Positions 31,041-40,956 of a stretch of DNA of 43,204 nucleotides are shown in pieces; positions within the stretch are counted from its first letter, which is position 1; every line of letters begins with the position of its first letter. The position numbers and the translations under genes are program-made. The notes below the pieces were generated by a model, which was given only the letters and a program-made list of their open reading frames with translations, ran no database searches and had not been told where the DNA came from. The stretch spans positions 1-43,204 of the forward strand of contig JAICJD010000008.1 in NCBI GenBank assembly GCA_025928645.1. Direction: 5' to 3'. Source of the DNA: Gemmatimonadales bacterium (GTDB lineage Bacteria; Gemmatimonadota; Gemmatimonadetes; Gemmatimonadales; GWC2-71-9).

Positions 31041-32115
31041 GTGGGTGCTGGGGATCGAGACGTCCTGCGACGAGACCTCGGCCGCGGTGCTCCGCCGGGA
31101 CGAGTCGCGCGCCGAGCTCGCGGGGCTCTCGATCCTCTCCCAGGACGTGCACCGCATCTTCGGTGGCGTCGTGCCCGAGCTCGCGAGCCGGGCGCACGTG
31201 CAGGTGCTCGGCTCGGTGGTGGAGCGCGCGTTGGCGGACGCGGGCATCGGGCTGAGCCGGCTCGACGGCGTCACGGTGACCGCGGGTCCGGGACTGGTCG
31301 GCGCGCTGCTGGTCGGCGTGATGTACGGAAAGACGCTCGCCTTCAGCCTCGACCGTCCCCTGCTCGGCGTCAACCACCTCGAGGGACACCTGTTCGCGCC
31401 CACGCTCGAGGACCCCGAGCTGGTGCCGCCGTTCGTCGGGCTGCTCGTGAGCGGCGGCCACACGATGCTGCTCGACGTGCCCGCGTGGGGCGAGTACAGG
31501 CTGCTGGGGCAGACCCTCGACGATGCCGCGGGCGAAGCCTTCGACAAGGTGGCCAAGCTGCTGGGGCTCGGGTACCCGGGGGGCGCGCCCATCGAGCGCC
31601 TCGCCCGTGAGGGGCAGCCGGGCCGGTTCCGGTTCCCCCGCCCCATGCTGCAGGAGGTCGAACGCGACGGACCGCACCGCTATGCATTCTCCTTCAGCGG
31701 GCTCAAGACTGCGGTGCTCAGGACGGTGCAACGCAGCCCAGGCGGCGAGCTGACCGAGCTCGACCACCAGACCCGGGCCGACATCGCGTGGGGCTTTCAG
31801 GATGCGGTGAACGAGGTGCTGGTGGCCAAGACGGCGGCGGCGGTTGACGCGCTCGGCTATTCGACGGCCATGGTGGGCGGAGGCGTCGCGTGCAATCGAG
31901 CCCTGGTGGCCCGGCTGCGGGAGCGGCTGGCGTCGCGGGCGCGCGTGAGCGTAGCTTCCCCTCGGCTCAACACCGACAACGCGGCGATGATCGCCGCGGC
32001 GGGCGCCTGGCGCCTCGCGCGGGGCGAGCGCAGCGGCTGGGACCTCGAAGCCCGCGACGATCTGCCGCTGCCCGGCCTGGTGGCGCCACAACCCGTTTCC
32101 GGACCCGACGCGTGA
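31033..32115 (+). CDS. tsaD: tRNA N6-threonylcarbamoyladenosine transferase TsaD
   Basis: This 360-aa ASKHA-fold protein transfers the threonylcarbamoyl group to A37 of ANN-decoding tRNAs, with TsaB and TsaE (not in this window). Motifs: LGIETSCDETSAAV at the start, VTAGPGLVGALLVG, NHLEGHLFAP with the metal-binding His pair, VSGGHTMLL, GEAFDKVAKLLGLGYPGG and SFSGLKTAV, and the C-terminal GGGVACNRALVA. Complete and of normal length. Confidence 0.96.
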   Translation: MAEWVLGIETSCDETSAAVLRRDESRAELAGLSILSQDVHRIFGGVVPELASRAHVQVLGSVVERALADAGIGLSRLDGVTVTAGPGLVGALLVGVMYGKTLAFSLDRPLLGVNHLEGHLFAPTLEDPELVPPFVGLLVSGGHTMLLDVPAWGEYRLLGQTLDDAAGEAFDKVAKLLGLGYPGGAPIERLAREGQPGRFRFPRPMLQEVERDGPHRYAFSFSGLKTAVLRTVQRSPGGELTELDHQTRADIAWGFQDAVNEVLVAKTAAAVDALGYSTAMVGGGVACNRALVARLRERLASRARVSVASPRLNTDNAAMIAAAGAWRLARGERSGWDLEARDDLPLPGLVAPQPVSGPDA

Positions 32116-33020
32116 CCATCTACCCCTTCAAGATCCCGCTCCCCTTTTTCCCCCACGAGCTCACGGGCTACGGCCTGATGATGATGGTCGCATTCCTGAT
32201 GGGGGGCTGGCTCATCGCGCTCGAGCTCAGGCGGCGCGGGCTGCTCGAGGAGTACTCGGCGGACATCATCGCCGCGGCCGTTGTCGGCGGCATCGTAGGG
32301 GCCAAGCTCTGGTACGTGGCACTCACACGGGACCCGGGCAGCCTGTTCGAGCGCGGGGGGTTCGTGTGGTACGGCGGATTTCTGGGCGGCGCCGCAGCAG
32401 TGATCCTCAACGGCTGGCGGCTCCGCGTGCCGCTGCGCTGGACCATGCACGTGGCGGCCCCGGCCCTGGCCGCCGCCTACGCGCTGGGTCGAGTCGGCTG
32501 TTTCCTGGTCAACGACGACTACGGCCGGCCGACCTCGCTGCCGTGGGGGGTGAAGTTCCCCCAAGGCCTTCCGCCTTCGACCGCCGGCAACCTGCAGCAC
32601 CTGTTCGGCGTGCCGGTCCCCGCGGGCATCGATCCATCCACCGTCCTCACGGTGCACCCCACGCAGCTCTACGAGACCACGCTCATGCTGGCCGCGTTCT
32701 TCGTGCTGTGGGTGTGGCGCCGCCGGCCCAAGCCGATCGGGTGGCTGTTCGGAGCCTATCTGATCTTCGCCGGGATCGAGCGCTTTCTCATCGAGATCGT
32801 GCGGGCAAAGGACGACCGCTGGGTCATACCGCCGTTCACCTTGGCGCAACTCACCTCGGTCATTCTCGTGCTGATCGGCCTCTGGATTCTGACCCGGTGG
32901 AAGGACGACCCGACTCCTGATCCGGGAGACTATCTCCGAGGTGGCAAGGAGTTGGTGGCGTCAAAAACATCGACACCGCCGGAAGCCGTTGCAACTAAAC
33001 AGGTTAGCGGCAAGAAGTAA
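32112..33020 (+). CDS. lgt: Prolipoprotein diacylglyceryl transferase
   Basis: This 302-aa inner-membrane enzyme adds diacylglycerol to the lipobox Cys of prolipoproteins. It has several hydrophobic helices, WYGGFLGG, GRVGCFLVNDDYGRPT (the Lgt signature region) and HPTQLYET, then GIERFLIEIVRAKDD. Start is GTG at 32112 overlapping tsaD by 4 nt. The C-terminal tail (last about 40 aa) is hydrophilic, lysine-rich and from less GC-rich DNA than the rest. It is the last gene of the + strand series; a putative RNA and terminator follow. Confidence 0.93.
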   Translation: MTIYPFKIPLPFFPHELTGYGLMMMVAFLMGGWLIALELRRRGLLEEYSADIIAAAVVGGIVGAKLWYVALTRDPGSLFERGGFVWYGGFLGGAAAVILNGWRLRVPLRWTMHVAAPALAAAYALGRVGCFLVNDDYGRPTSLPWGVKFPQGLPPSTAGNLQHLFGVPVPAGIDPSTVLTVHPTQLYETTLMLAAFFVLWVWRRRPKPIGWLFGAYLIFAGIERFLIEIVRAKDDRWVIPPFTLAQLTSVILVLIGLWILTRWKDDPTPDPGDYLRGGKELVASKTSTPPEAVATKQVSGKK

Positions 33021-33290
33021 AAATCGTATCAGACCTCGACAAGCCGAATGCCTGGAACGCAATCGGCGGCATCTCGGTAAATCGCTCTCCCACAAGTAGT
33101 TGCCAGTCGAGCAAGAAATGGCACCGGACTTGCCACTTATAAGAGCCAGGAAGCCGCAAGGCTCAACCGAAAAGTGGTAGGTCGAAGAAGGGTGGAGCAG
33201 GCACTTCGGCCTGTTTCCGTAAACTCAGGGGGCGATCTACCACCTCTCTACCGAACGGCCCGTCCAGCTGGACGGGCCGTTCGACTTTTC
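33021..33290 (+). ncRNA. Candidate structured non-coding RNA after lgt
   Basis: This 270-nt stretch has no plausible ORF, is clearly less GC-rich than its surroundings, and is dense in nested complementarity: GACCT (33032-33036) with AGGTC (33179-33183) enclosing GCCGA/TCGGC (33043-33047/33063-33067), TGCCA/TGGCA (33101-33105/33119-33123) and TGCCACTT/AAGTGGTA (33131-33138/33172-33179), the last with an internal AGCC-GCAA-GGCT GNRA hairpin (33152-33163). A second domain is GGTGG/CCACC (33191-33195/33240-33244) around CAGGC-ACTTCG-GCCTG. It ends at a strong terminator. I do not recognise a known class; it could also be a long 3' UTR of lgt. The positions 33291-33331 hold nothing I can name. 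Confidence 0.4.
33252..33290 (+). terminator. Rho-independent terminator
   Basis: Positions 33252-33283 form a perfect 32-nt palindrome (16-bp stem) with no spacer beyond the centre, so the loop must open from the CCAGCTGG core. It is followed on the + strand by ACTTTTC, a short T tract; the - strand side has none, so termination is expected for + strand transcripts (the lgt operon and/or the RNA candidate). Confidence 0.75.
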
Positions 33291-33331
33291 ATGCCTCGCC
33301 CAGGCGGCTGCCCGCGCGCGGAGCGCGACGC

Positions 33332-33817
33332 TCAGCGAGGGTGAAGCTCGCGCTCCGCGACTACGATCCCGTCGCGGTCCGCGTAGACGTAGCAGCCCGG
33401 CCGAAAGGTGACGCCGGCGAACATCACCGGCACGCTCCGCTCGCCGGCCCCGGCCTTGGCGCTTTTCCGCGGGATCGCGCCGAGCGCCTTGACGCCCACC
33501 GGAACCGTGCGGATCTCCTCGGCGTCACGAATGCAGCCGTTCACGATGATCCCGGCCCAGCCGTTTCGATGAGCCAACTCCGCCAGATTGCCGCCCGCGA
33601 GGGCTGAACGGCGCGAGCCGCCGCCGTCCACCACCAGCACGCGCCCCTGCCCCGGCGCCTCCAGGGCCTCGCGCACCAGCGCGTTATCCTCGAACACGCG
33701 AACGGTCTCGATTGGGCCCGCAAACGCCACCGAGCCGCCCCAGTCTTCGAAGAGCGGCTCGGCCACCTGCACCTCGGCCCCGAATTGATCGCAGAGATCC
33801 GCGGTGGCCGCGGGCAT
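33332..33817 (-). CDS. rraA: RraA family protein (RNase E regulator / HMG-type aldolase)
   Basis: This 161-aa protein has [12 protein letters not shown] at the start, [23 protein letters not shown] and [17 protein letters not shown], which are closest to RraA, the protein inhibitor of RNase E; related proteins are 4-hydroxy-4-methyl-2-oxoglutarate aldolases with the same fold. The GxxxLxxxG and R-x3-D residues of the aldolase site are partly kept (CIRD), so either role is possible. The ATG at 33817 overlaps the stop of the FTR1 gene by 1 nt, pairing it with iron uptake in one transcript. Confidence 0.85.
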
Positions 33818-35964
33818 CAGCGAGGCGGCCGCTCCGCGGAAAGCGGCCGGTCCGCGGGAAGATGCCCGCGCATGCGCTCGACCTCGGCCCGCATCTCGGC
33901 GAGGTCGGCCTCCATCCGCTCGAGCGACCGGCGAAGCTCGAGCACAGCCGCGGGCCCGACCGCCTCCGCGCCCGGTGCCATGGCGGCGGGAGGCACCGGC
34001 GCGCGCCGCGGCTCGGGCACCATGACGGAGGTCACCCCGCGAACCCGCCGCGGCTCGATCACGAAGTTCCACACCAGCGCCAGCATGGCCAGCGCCAGCA
34101 GCAGGGCCTGCGCGGCCAGCGATTCGGCGGTCGGGTAGATGCCGAGCGCGGGCACGCGGGGCGCCCAGGAGACGATCGTGGTGCCGATCAGGCCGCCTTC
34201 CTGCAGCTCCGCGATGCCCTTGCCCGCGAACACGAACGCCATGTAGTAGAGGAACGCGCTGGTGACGGCGAAGAACGGCTTGAGCGGAAGCCGCACGCCG
34301 AACCGATTGATCGCGATGTACACGGCCACGAGCACCACGGAGCCCGCCAGGATGCCCGCGACCACAGGCATCACGCTCCCTGCGCCGCCGGCCACGAAGA
34401 GCGCCTTGTAGAACAGGACCGTCTCGAAACCCTCGCGGTACACGGCCAGGAACGCCGCCGACGCCAGCGCGAGCGCGGAGCCGCTGTCGAGGGCGTCCTT
34501 CACCTTGCTCTTCACGAAGTGGTTCCACTTCACCACTTCCATCTTGGACAGCAGCCAGTAGCTCACGTAGAACAGCACGCCGGTGGCCACCACCATCGTG
34601 CCGCCTTCGAGCGCCTCGCGGTGCGCCGGGCTCAGCACGAAGATCGTCTCCAGCGCCACGGCGGTGAGCAAGCTGGCCCCGACCGCCGCACCGACTCCGA
34701 TGTGGATGTCGCGCTTGCGCTGCGCGGCGCCCATCTTGGAGAGGAACGTCATCAGGGCGCCCACGATGAGGATCGCCTCGAGCCCCTCGCGCACCAGGAT
34801 GACGAACGACTGCACGAACAGGTTGAGCGGTGAGTCCTTGTCGCCCAGGAGCCGCTCGGCGTTTTCCAGACCGGCCTCGAGCTGCCGCCGGAGCGCCGCG
34901 AGCTCGTCCGGCGTCGCGCCGCCCGCCGCCCGCGTGCGAAGGGACGCGAACTCGGTCTCGAGCTGGGCCGCGAGCGCCGGGCTCTTCGCGCGGACGCCGC
35001 GCTCCACCTGCTCGAACGTCATGTAGGCATCGAAGGCGCGGCCGCTGGCGGCCGGGTCGCCCGCGCGGGCCAGCATGAAGGCGGAATCGAGCTGCTGCCG
35101 CACCCGCGCGAAGACCTGCGCGCTCGCCGCGTCGGTGTGATCGGCCTGGAAGGTGCGGACCGCGGCCAGCCGGCCAAGGGCCTCGGGGCTGGTGGAGTCG
35201 GTCTCGCCGAGTGCGCCGAGCACCTGATCGTCCGACATCGGCCCGGTGGTGGCAAAGGTCCGGAGCGACGGCGGCACTTCGCCGCGCGGGGCGGGCAGCC
35301 GCAGCACGCTCGCGTAGAGCGCCACGGCCCACCTGTCCTCGGCCGGCAGCCGGCCCTCGAAGGCGGGCATGGCGGTGCCTACGGTCCCGATGCTGATCCG
35401 GCGGAAATAGTCGAGCGGAGAGACGTCCCGCAGCGCCGGGCCGTCGGCGAGGTTGGCCGGCGGCGGATCGAGGCCGGCAGCCTGCTGGCCGTCGCCGCGC
35501 CCCACCGCGCCATGGCATCCGGCGCAGTTGGCCTGGTAGACCTCGGCGCCGCGTGCGAGCGAGGGGGTGTTGGCCGGCAGTTCGTCGAGGGTAATGCCGA
35601 GCCGCTGGCTGAGACCGGAGCTGAGCGTCCGGACGTGGGCATCGAGTGAGTCGGGCGGGGCCGTGGCGCCGACCAGTCGGAGCAACTCGTCGATCTCGCC
35701 GACCGCCGGCTTGCCGGCCGCCTCGGGCAGGAGCACCGCCGAACGCCTGGCCTCCTGGAGGAAGAGGGTCGCCTCCTCCACCTCGGCCTTGGCGACCACC
35801 CGCCCGTTGACCACGCCGTTCCGATATTCCTGCGCCGCGAGCTGGGCCGTGGCGGCCACCCGGCGCGCGACCGGCGCGCGGTCCTGACTCGCAACCGGCT
35901 GCTGCTGTTGGGGCACCGTGGTCGTGGCCGCGAGCGCCGCGAGAAGCCCACCGATGAGAATCAT
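33817..35964 (-). CDS. Cytochrome c-FTR1 fusion iron permease
   Basis: This 715-aa protein combines a signal peptide (about 1-28), an N-terminal helical region, a cytochrome c domain with heme site CAGCH (about 147-151) and a distal Met in GTAMPAFEG, a helical linker, and an FTR1 permease with two REGxE motifs: [11 protein letters not shown] near residue 392 and [13 protein letters not shown] near 510. A coiled-coil tail follows (about 660-700). Such proteins may couple Fe(II) oxidation to Fe(III) uptake. Start is ATG at 35964 (GTG at 35970 also possible). The promoter lies at 36022-35994 and rraA follows with a 1-nt overlap. Confidence 0.88.
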
Positions 35965-35993
35965 TTTCACTCGTTCAAGAGTCGCCTGAGCAA

Positions 35994-39540: not shown

Positions 39541-40887
39541 TCACGCGACGATGTTGTACCGTTTGATCTTGTTGATCAGCGTGGCCCGCGAGATCCCCAG
39601 CTCGATGGCGGCCCGGGTGCGGTTGCCGGTGTGGTGCTTGAGCGTGCGCTCGATGTGCTGGCGCTCGAGATCCTCGAGGCTCAGCGGCGTATGCCGGCGG
39701 TCGCCGATGCCGGGCCGGGCGCGGAATTCGCCCGGCAGGTGCTCCACGCTCACGGCGGGCGCGCCGCGCCCGAGGATGAGCGCGCGCTCCAGCACGTTGC
39801 GCATTTCGCGCACGTTGCCCGGCCAGCCGTAGGCCAGCAGCCGGTCCAGCACCTCGGCGGACAGGGTGGACGGCCCGTCGGGCAGCTCGGCCCGGAGGTC
39901 GTTCATGAGCCGGGTGATGAGCGCCAGCCGGTCCTCGCGCGAGCGGTCGCGCACGGCGGGAAGCTGGAGCGGCATGACGCTCAGCCGGTAGTACAGGTCT
40001 TCCCGGAACCGGAGCTCCTCGACTTCGGTCTGGAGATCCTTGTTGGTGGCCGCCACCAGCCGCACGTCCACCGTGATCTCGCGGGTGCCGCCGAGCCGGC
40101 GGAACGTCTTCGTCTCGAGCACCTTGAGCAGCTTGGGCTGGAGCTCGGGGGCCAGGTCGCCGATCTCGTCGAGGAAGATCGTGCCGTGGTCGGCGATCTC
40201 GAACAGCCCCTGCTTCCGGTCCTTGGCGTCGGTGAACGCGCCCTTCTCGTGCCCGAACAGCTCGGAGTCGAGGAAAGTGGCATTGAGGCCCGCGCAGTTC
40301 ACCTCGACGAACGGCGCGCGGGCGCGCGGGCTCAGGTCGTGAATCATCCGCGCGACCCAGCCCTTTCCCGTCCCGCTCTCGCCGGTGAGCAGGACCGTGG
40401 TCCGCTCGCTCTGCGCCAGGAGACCGACCTGGTGGGCGAAGTCCTGCATGCCGCTCGACGTGCCCAGCGAATCGAGTCCGTGGCCCGGCGCGCTCTGGAC
40501 CAGGAGCGCCTCGTTCACCCGGCGAAGCCGCGCCTTGTCCGCCACGCGCGCGGTAGCGGCGGCCAGGTGCTCCATGTCCACCGGCTTGGTGAGGAAGTTC
40601 TCCGCGCCGAGCTGCATGGCGCGGACCGCGGTGGCCACGTCGCTCTCGCCGGTGAGGAGGACGACCGCCGCGTCCCGCTGCCTCAGGTGCTCGAGCACCT
40701 CCATCCCGTCCATCCCGGGCAGCCGGAGGTCGAGGATCACCACCTCCGGCCGCAGCCGGTCGAACGTGGCCAGCCCGGCCTCGCCGCTCAGCTCCCGGGT
40801 GACCTCGTAGCCCAGACGCTCGAAGTAGTTCCCGATGCTGCGCAGGACGTCGACGTCGTCATCGATGAGGAGGACGGATCCGGCCAT
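39541..40887 (-). CDS. NtrC-family sigma-54-dependent response regulator (GAFTDA variant)
   Basis: This 448-aa protein has a receiver (acidic pocket Asp9-Asp11, phospho-acceptor Asp53, Lys101), an AAA+ domain with Walker A GESGTGKG (169-176), ELFGHEKGAFTDA (the loop that touches sigma-54, normally GAFTGA, here Asp220), Walker B IFLDEIGDL, the R-finger region and a Fis-type HTH at the C terminus (HTGNRTRAAIELGISRATLI). It activates sigma-54 promoters when phosphorylated; no sensor kinase is adjacent. ATG 40887 is chosen because the receiver starts directly after it; the open frame extends 17 codons further. Confidence 0.88.
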   Translation of the reverse strand: MAGSVLLIDDDVDVLRSIGNYFERLGYEVTRELSGEAGLATFDRLRPEVVILDLRLPGMDGMEVLEHLRQRDAAVVLLTGESDVATAVRAMQLGAENFLTKPVDMEHLAAATARVADKARLRRVNEALLVQSAPGHGLDSLGTSSGMQDFAHQVGLLAQSERTTVLLTGESGTGKGWVARMIHDLSPRARAPFVEVNCAGLNATFLDSELFGHEKGAFTDAKDRKQGLFEIADHGTIFLDEIGDLAPELQPKLLKVLETKTFRRLGGTREITVDVRLVAATNKDLQTEVEELRFREDLYYRLSVMPLQLPAVRDRSREDRLALITRLMNDLRAELPDGPSTLSAEVLDRLLAYGWPGNVREMRNVLERALILGRGAPAVSVEHLPGEFRARPGIGDRRHTPLSLEDLERQHIERTLKHHTGNRTRAAIELGISRATLINKIKRYNIVA

Positions 40888-40913
40888 TGCTCTGCCTTGG
40901 GAGGTTGCGATTC

Positions 40914-40956
40914 GGCCAGGGTGACTCGTGCCAGCCAAAAATTAGTCACCCCGGCC
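40914..40956. promoter_or_regulatory. Operator-like inverted repeat around a -10 box upstream of the response regulator
   Basis: Arms GGCCAGGGTGAC (40914-40925) and GTCACCCCGGCC (40945-40956) pair with one mismatch. The 19-nt centre contains TAATTT (40944-40939, - strand), a -10-like box with GTGACG 17 nt upstream of it on the - strand. Predicted start near 40932 gives a 45-nt leader to ATG 40887. The left part (40905-40928) also resembles the outer arm of the 36078-36151 hairpin (20 of 24 positions), so it may be a decayed repeat instead. Confidence 0.4.

Follow-up and report, generated by a model that had tools for sequence, protein, structure and literature searches.

The region between lgt and an rraA-like gene, both of them ordinary genes, in an uncultured Gemmatimonadales bacterium (host genome G000) is the predicted locus of a small RNA gene. 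The explanation that accounts best for the findings overall, at a rough probability of 0.6, is that this gene would be read by sigma-54 RNA polymerase and that its RNA would act in trans on a protein partner. Our best reading of its homologues is a new RNA family, transcribed independently and activated by sigma-54, in which an invariant internal loop is the binding site, most likely for a protein; novelty is measured here against Rfam 15 and a collection of open-access papers. RNA regulation in Gemmatimonadota is little known, and the family offers a concrete RNA with a defined promoter, predicted ends and a fixed core.

A structured RNA downstream of lgt

The window, meaning the whole stretch of DNA that was analyzed, is 43,204 nucleotides long. 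The genes on either side of the RNA are as follows.

32112..33020, plus strand: lgt, the conserved upstream neighbor (Pfam PF01790, 170 bits)
33332..33823, minus strand: rraA-like gene, the convergent downstream neighbor (Pfam PF03737, 164 bits)

The RNA lies downstream of lgt in every homologue inspected with enough flank, and the lgt sequence was recovered from 24 member loci. The rraA-like gene is missing at the same place in several relatives. We also noted a single open frame on the minus strand (33817-35970) that joins cytochrome c domains and an FTR1-type iron permease; by-eye reading indicated that cytochrome c/FTR1-like genes recur beside lgt in Gemmatimonadales family f1.

The first-pass annotation had described 33021-33290 as AT-richer DNA carrying a structured small RNA of no known class, with a terminator at its end and competing pairings typical of a switch. 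The unassigned structured RNA and its terminator stood up, and the switch and the proposed extent did not. A structured-RNA feature is thus confirmed in this region, though it is other than the one first described. The GC content of 33021-33250 is 0.54, compared with 0.66 in lgt and 0.72 over the window. Fold z scores of -5.2 for 33021-33290 and -6.1 for the predicted transcript (33145-33290) were obtained, and in both cases 0 of 200 dinucleotide-preserving shuffles were as stable. Good folding was likewise seen for the minus strand (z = -4.3); the conserved G-U pairs of the core (columns 12/75 and 22/63 of alignment A2) identify the plus strand as the RNA strand.

No family in Rfam 15 matched the window at curated thresholds. 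A permissive scan of the region and 20 homologous loci returned sub-threshold hits only; those in the region were at chance level, the best of them falling on the terminator palindrome. There was no match to 6S RNA (RF00013); the core has an 11-bp stem that leads into a 5x6-nt internal loop. Searches of a collection of open-access papers turned up no account of an RNA of this kind in Gemmatimonadota.

Predicted transcript

It is almost certain, as judged from sequence, that the region holds a discrete small RNA gene transcribed independently of its neighbors. The RNA would begin with a 5' hairpin and an A-rich linker, continue into the 70-nt core hairpin and end with an intrinsic terminator.

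~33145..33290, plus strand: predicted RNA of ~145 nt, its start taken from the geometry of the -12 element (uncertainty of ~2 nt) and its end from the terminator
33149..33168, plus strand: 5' hairpin, with inner AGCC-GCAA-GGCT at 33152-33163
33169-33173, plus strand: A-rich linker GAAAA, directly after the 5' hairpin
33174..33243, plus strand: conserved core hairpin of 70 nt
33252..33289, plus strand: intrinsic terminator, a palindrome (33252-33283) followed by a T-rich tail

The 5' hairpin was predicted at the same place in all 25 full homologues folded; its sequence is variable and it is weak in several of them. The terminator had been described as a perfect 16-bp stem. The 32-nt palindrome at 33252-33283 is indeed perfect, giving 16 bp on paper and in practice 14 bp with a 4-nt loop, and is followed by ACTTTTC. 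A terminator hairpin (-26 to -42 kcal/mol, free in sequence) was found 3' of the core in 25 of 25 homologues checked. Many members have only a short T-run, which counts against the overall reading.

A sigma-54 promoter and its probable exchange

The sequence upstream of the predicted start contains a sigma-54 promoter element, together with two candidate activator half-sites.

33119..33133, plus strand: sigma-54 promoter TGGCACCGGACTTGC, with the -24 GG at 33120-33121 and the -12 GC at 33132-33133 (GG-N10-GC)
33036..33041, plus strand: candidate half-site for an activator, TCGACA, 83 bp upstream of the -24 element
32970..32975, plus strand: candidate half-site for an activator, TCGACA, 149 bp upstream of the -24 element and within the 3'-terminal part of lgt

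Every one of the 17 homologues outside genus g45 has a GG-N10-GC element of the TGGCAY-N5-TTGC type, placed 48 to 59 nt 5' of the core. The joint chance of finding it in 17 members was estimated from Markov shuffles at ~1e-33, a figure that treats related sequences as independent. The sigma-54 gene, rpoN (PF04552), was detected in G000, and 33 of 35 family genomes have it. Control of the RNA by sigma-54 in this genome is therefore predicted as very probable. Sigma-54 RNA polymerase would read the RNA from the -24/-12 promoter and transcription would end at the terminator; given a promoter of this class, synthesis of the RNA should depend on the firing of an enhancer-binding activator.

All of the elements quoted in the first-pass annotation are in place (TGGCA at 33119, TGCCA at 33101 and 33131, AGCC at 33144 and 33152, and the hairpin AGCC-GCAA-GGCT). 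Their reading as competing pairs of a switch was not sustained, because one partner is the promoter and the other lies at the start site: TGGCA at 33119 and TGCCA at 33131 are the -24 and -12 parts of the sigma-54 element and, being upstream of the predicted start, would not be in the RNA, and AGCC at 33144 straddles the start, with relatives mostly keeping a short local 5' hairpin. The RNA had also been taken to extend for about 270 nt from 33021, whereas its start is predicted near 33145.

The g45 homologues differ in their promoter. In 9 of 9, the sigma-54 element is absent and a sigma-70-like promoter is present, consisting of TTGACA (TTGACG once)-N17-TAnnnT. Promoters of the two classes predict approximately the same start, 28 to 29 nt before the core in typical members, and all 26 members have one or the other at a near-fixed distance. 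One g8 member has both types. At locus L030 (genome G123), a sigma-70-like TTGACA-N16-TACAAT occurs along with a sigma-54 element, and an inverted repeat, TTTGTCAAACAATTTGACGAA, is found farther upstream; a similar repeat is seen in L034. In a tree of lgt, the sigma-70 (g45) group forms one clade (support, 99/97) and the sigma-54 members are spread over several lineages, so that a single promoter swap on a vertically kept gene fits best. Replacement of sigma-54 by sigma-70 with the predicted start left where it was would be a clean natural case of one RNA gene changing its promoter class.

The motif TCGACA/TGTCGA was seen 11 times upstream of the 17 sigma-54 members, against 1.6 expected, and once upstream of the g45 members, against 1.3 expected. 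We tentatively propose that it is an enhancer site for the RNA promoter. The other exact TGGCAY-N5-TTGC sites in G000 (contig C9, 32344-32358 and 39440-39454) are found ahead of genes for a type IV pilin and a PilM-like protein, respectively, indicating that the motif marks plausible sigma-54 genes and suggesting that type IV pili in G000 may be under sigma-54 control. The TCGACA motif was not found upstream of these pilin or PilM-like sigma-54 sites, and a shared PilR-type enhancer was rejected. Elsewhere in the window, 6 kb from the RNA, an intact NtrC-type response regulator (receiver, Sigma54_activat and Fis-type HTH domains) is encoded on the minus strand at 39541-40938; GAFTDA replaces the usual GAFTGA loop in this protein.

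Structure and covariation of the core hairpin

The most conserved part of the region, 33174-33243, had not been singled out in the first-pass annotation. A covariance model of this core, R1, matches in 26 genomes (39.6 to 106 bits), and the core shows covariation. Its parts, all on the plus strand, are as follows.

33174..33184 / 33233..33243, plus strand: helix P1, 11 bp, 5' arm GTGGTAGGTCG and 3' arm CGATCTACCAC
33185..33189, plus strand: 5' side of the internal loop, AAGAA
33190..33193 / 33223-33226, plus strand: helix P1b, GGGU / ACUC
33194..33218, plus strand: P2/P2b arm, GGAG-CAGGC, 6-nt loop ACUUCG, GCCUG-U-UUCC
33219-33222, plus strand: 4-nt 3' bulge GUAA, directly after the P2/P2b arm
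33227..33232, plus strand: 3' side of the internal loop, AGGGGG

In P1, 100% of cells are paired across the 26 sequences, with two-sided changes in 6 of 11 pairs. Some of the paired replacements can be read by eye: the arms become GTCCCAGGACG/CGTTCTGGGAC in genus g45, GTCCCTAGGCG/CGTCTAGGGAC in L041 and GTGATAGGCCG/CGGCCTATCAC in L042, none of which was in the training set. Changes in P1b (G-U to A-U and U-A, and U-A to C-G) keep the pairs, and the P2/P2b arm has two-sided changes in 4 of its 9 pairs and a terminal loop of variable sequence. The internal loop, by contrast with these helices, is fixed. AGGGGG is identical in 26 of 26 members and AAGAA is unchanged in 25 of 26, L043 alone being different.

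Over the whole core (26 sequences, alignment A2), 98.9% of cells are paired. Two-sided compensatory changes were found in 12 of 24 pairs and 76 cells, compared with 7.0 pairs and 23.8 cells in shuffles, counts that lean towards structure because A2 was fitted to a model built on 13 of the 26 members. The covariation score was 0.364, compared with 0.167 +/- 0.012 for shuffled alignments, and sliding the partner column by 1 to 3 positions lowered pairing to 32 to 47%. Compensatory changes therefore preserve the helices in homologues, as in conserved structured noncoding RNAs generally, and the covariation and conservation by which the first-pass annotation had proposed to judge its candidate are both present.

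The weakest member, L043 (genome G034, genus g26; 39.6 bits), keeps P1, AGGGGG and the sigma-54 element and has a changed 5' loop face. This member is either decaying or has a variant recognition site, and it counts against the overall reading.

Distribution and descent

Among 61 genomes searched at the DNA level, 13 contained the region, and the R1 search matched 26 genomes in a 250-genome sample of the order, all of them in family f1. The 102 genomes of family f1 yielded 26 true members, with one copy per genome; in G002, what is apparently the same copy appears at two contig ends. No match outside family f1 was obtained in a 298-genome sample of the phylum. A pattern scan of 84,980 GTDB species returned 21 Gemmatimonadetes/Gemmatimonadales records and two chance hits, in Kapaibacterium (L063) and Kocuria (L065), both lacking P1. 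The single pattern hit in viral contigs (L068) was judged to be chance as well. Taken together, the genome, phylum, GTDB and viral searches indicate a narrow family, confined to about nine genera of one Gemmatimonadales family.

Weak covariance-model hits (L111 to L114 and a second site in G150) were rejected as members after their sequences were read. One of these, L112 (genome G196, genus g20; 24 bits), has a stem, GGCGGTAG...CTACCGCC, that encloses a purine-rich loop containing GAAGAAGAAGG; we judged it to be chance, and a remote relationship is conceivable.

In most genomes that lack the RNA, the spacer between lgt and the next gene is short, an example being G001, which belongs to the same genus as G000. 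In the lgt tree, the genomes lacking the RNA include one large clade and a scatter of others. This distribution is most simply read as vertical descent accompanied by losses and a single promoter swap.

Mode of action and alternative explanations

The core would form a rigid stem in which the helix sequence is free as long as it is paired and in which AAGAA, AGGGGG and the neighboring 4 bp are fixed, as would suit a binding site recognized by its shape as well as its sequence. An asymmetric, purine-rich internal loop that stays fixed while the helices about it vary marks a recognition site, and protein binding is accordingly favored by the conservation pattern and by the absence of other known partners; we would put it at even odds as the mode of action. 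Once bound, the trans-acting RNA would titrate or guide its protein partner. Antisense pairing and small-molecule binding rank next. A broader statement, that the RNA is the founding member of a new Gemmatimonadales class whose fixed loop is recognized by an RNA-binding protein or a metabolite and which acts as a post-transcriptional regulator of an undescribed kind, is possible, and we hold it with less confidence than protein binding.

Hfq, RapZ and CsrA are the partners of the well-known small RNAs of the sigma-54 promoter type and of decoy RNAs. Hfq (PF17209) was absent from 14 of 14 genomes tested and RapZ (PF03668) from 30 of 30, with control genomes positive in both cases. CsrA (PF02599) was found in 4 of 30 genomes tested and was absent from G000 and the other g1 genomes (six g1 genomes tested). 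These three proteins are unsupported as partners of the RNA on account of their absence from the genomes tested (for CsrA, from most of them). Post-transcriptional regulation in family f1 thus operates without the usual partners Hfq and RapZ and mostly without CsrA. As the hosts lack the protein partners of known sigma-54-dependent RNAs, identifying the partner of this one would bring to light a new RNA-binding regulator or else a new trans-acting aptamer.

An antisense RNA that silences or activates mRNAs by base pairing through the exposed AGGGGGC or GAAGAAGGG is an unlikely explanation. The G-rich loops could pair with C-rich stretches of mRNA, and well-known sigma-54-dependent small RNAs (Qrr and GlmZ) do pair with mRNAs. 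Against this stand the absence of Hfq, a variable RNA 5' end, and the conservation of both loop faces together in a paired frame, unlike a single seed. A search of ten genomes with the 11-nt complement of the invariant CUCAGGGGGCG, covering the loop complement only, found no target conserved between genomes. The exact complement, CGCCCCCTGAG, is about as frequent as its reversed control and not clearly enriched; in G012 the RNA gene is its sole location, and non-self sites in shared genes amount to one pair only.

Slightly less probable is a free-standing small-molecule aptamer, either riboswitch-like in trans or with its fold or stability set by a ligand. Strictly conserved, asymmetric, purine-rich internal loops between varying helices resemble aptamer cores, but no Rfam riboswitch matched and no gene in the same direction follows in the window, where rraA and the FTR1-like gene both run toward the RNA. 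There is no overlap between P1 and the arms of the terminator, so no switch in cis is visible, and the locus has neither the expression platform nor the same-strand regulated gene of a cis-acting riboswitch.

That the element belongs to lgt, as part of its 3' untranslated region or as a processing or terminator element with no transcript of its own, would explain its position beside lgt in all members inspected. We consider this very improbable, since every member has its own promoter of either class at a near-fixed distance, many genomes have lgt and no RNA, and the conservation far exceeds what a terminator needs. A short coding sequence is hardly credible: the core is open in one frame (GTG GTA GGT CGA AGA AGG GTG GAG...), within a 56-aa open reading frame at 33174-33344 that is stop free in this stretch in most of the 25 members checked, but core length differs by 1 to 3 nt in about eight members, several contain stops, and the changes in P1 are compensatory rather than codon-wise.

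Comparison with known systems

The preferred reading, a sigma-54-read small RNA acting on a protein, shares features with several described RNAs. Hairpin riboswitch aptamers with purine-rich internal loops have the same arrangement of varying helices and a fixed internal loop; unlike them, the present RNA has its own promoter, no same-strand gene downstream, no visible expression platform and no Rfam match. Decoys of the CsrB/RsmZ type act on CsrA, which was detected in 3 of the 15 RNA-bearing genomes tested.

CrcZ has a sigma-54 promoter, is much longer and is built around A-rich motifs. In Pseudomonas, it is a protein-sequestering RNA that titrates Hfq (PMC4063720). The RNA described here differs in having a single compact structured core and in occurring without Hfq.

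Qrr RNAs act by pairing, with Hfq; here, Hfq is absent and no Rfam family matches. The Qrr small RNAs of Vibrio are sigma-54 dependent (PMC10162802), as is predicted for the present RNA.

GlmY and GlmZ of the Enterobacteriaceae differ from the present RNA in phylum and in gene neighbors, and in that here there is no Rfam match and both RapZ (30 genomes) and Hfq (14 genomes) are absent; GlmZ pairs with mRNAs (PMC7073468). They resemble it as free-standing small RNAs with a sigma-54 promoter, and the promoter swap has a precedent in theirs (Goepel et al. 2011, as cited in PMC3162934).
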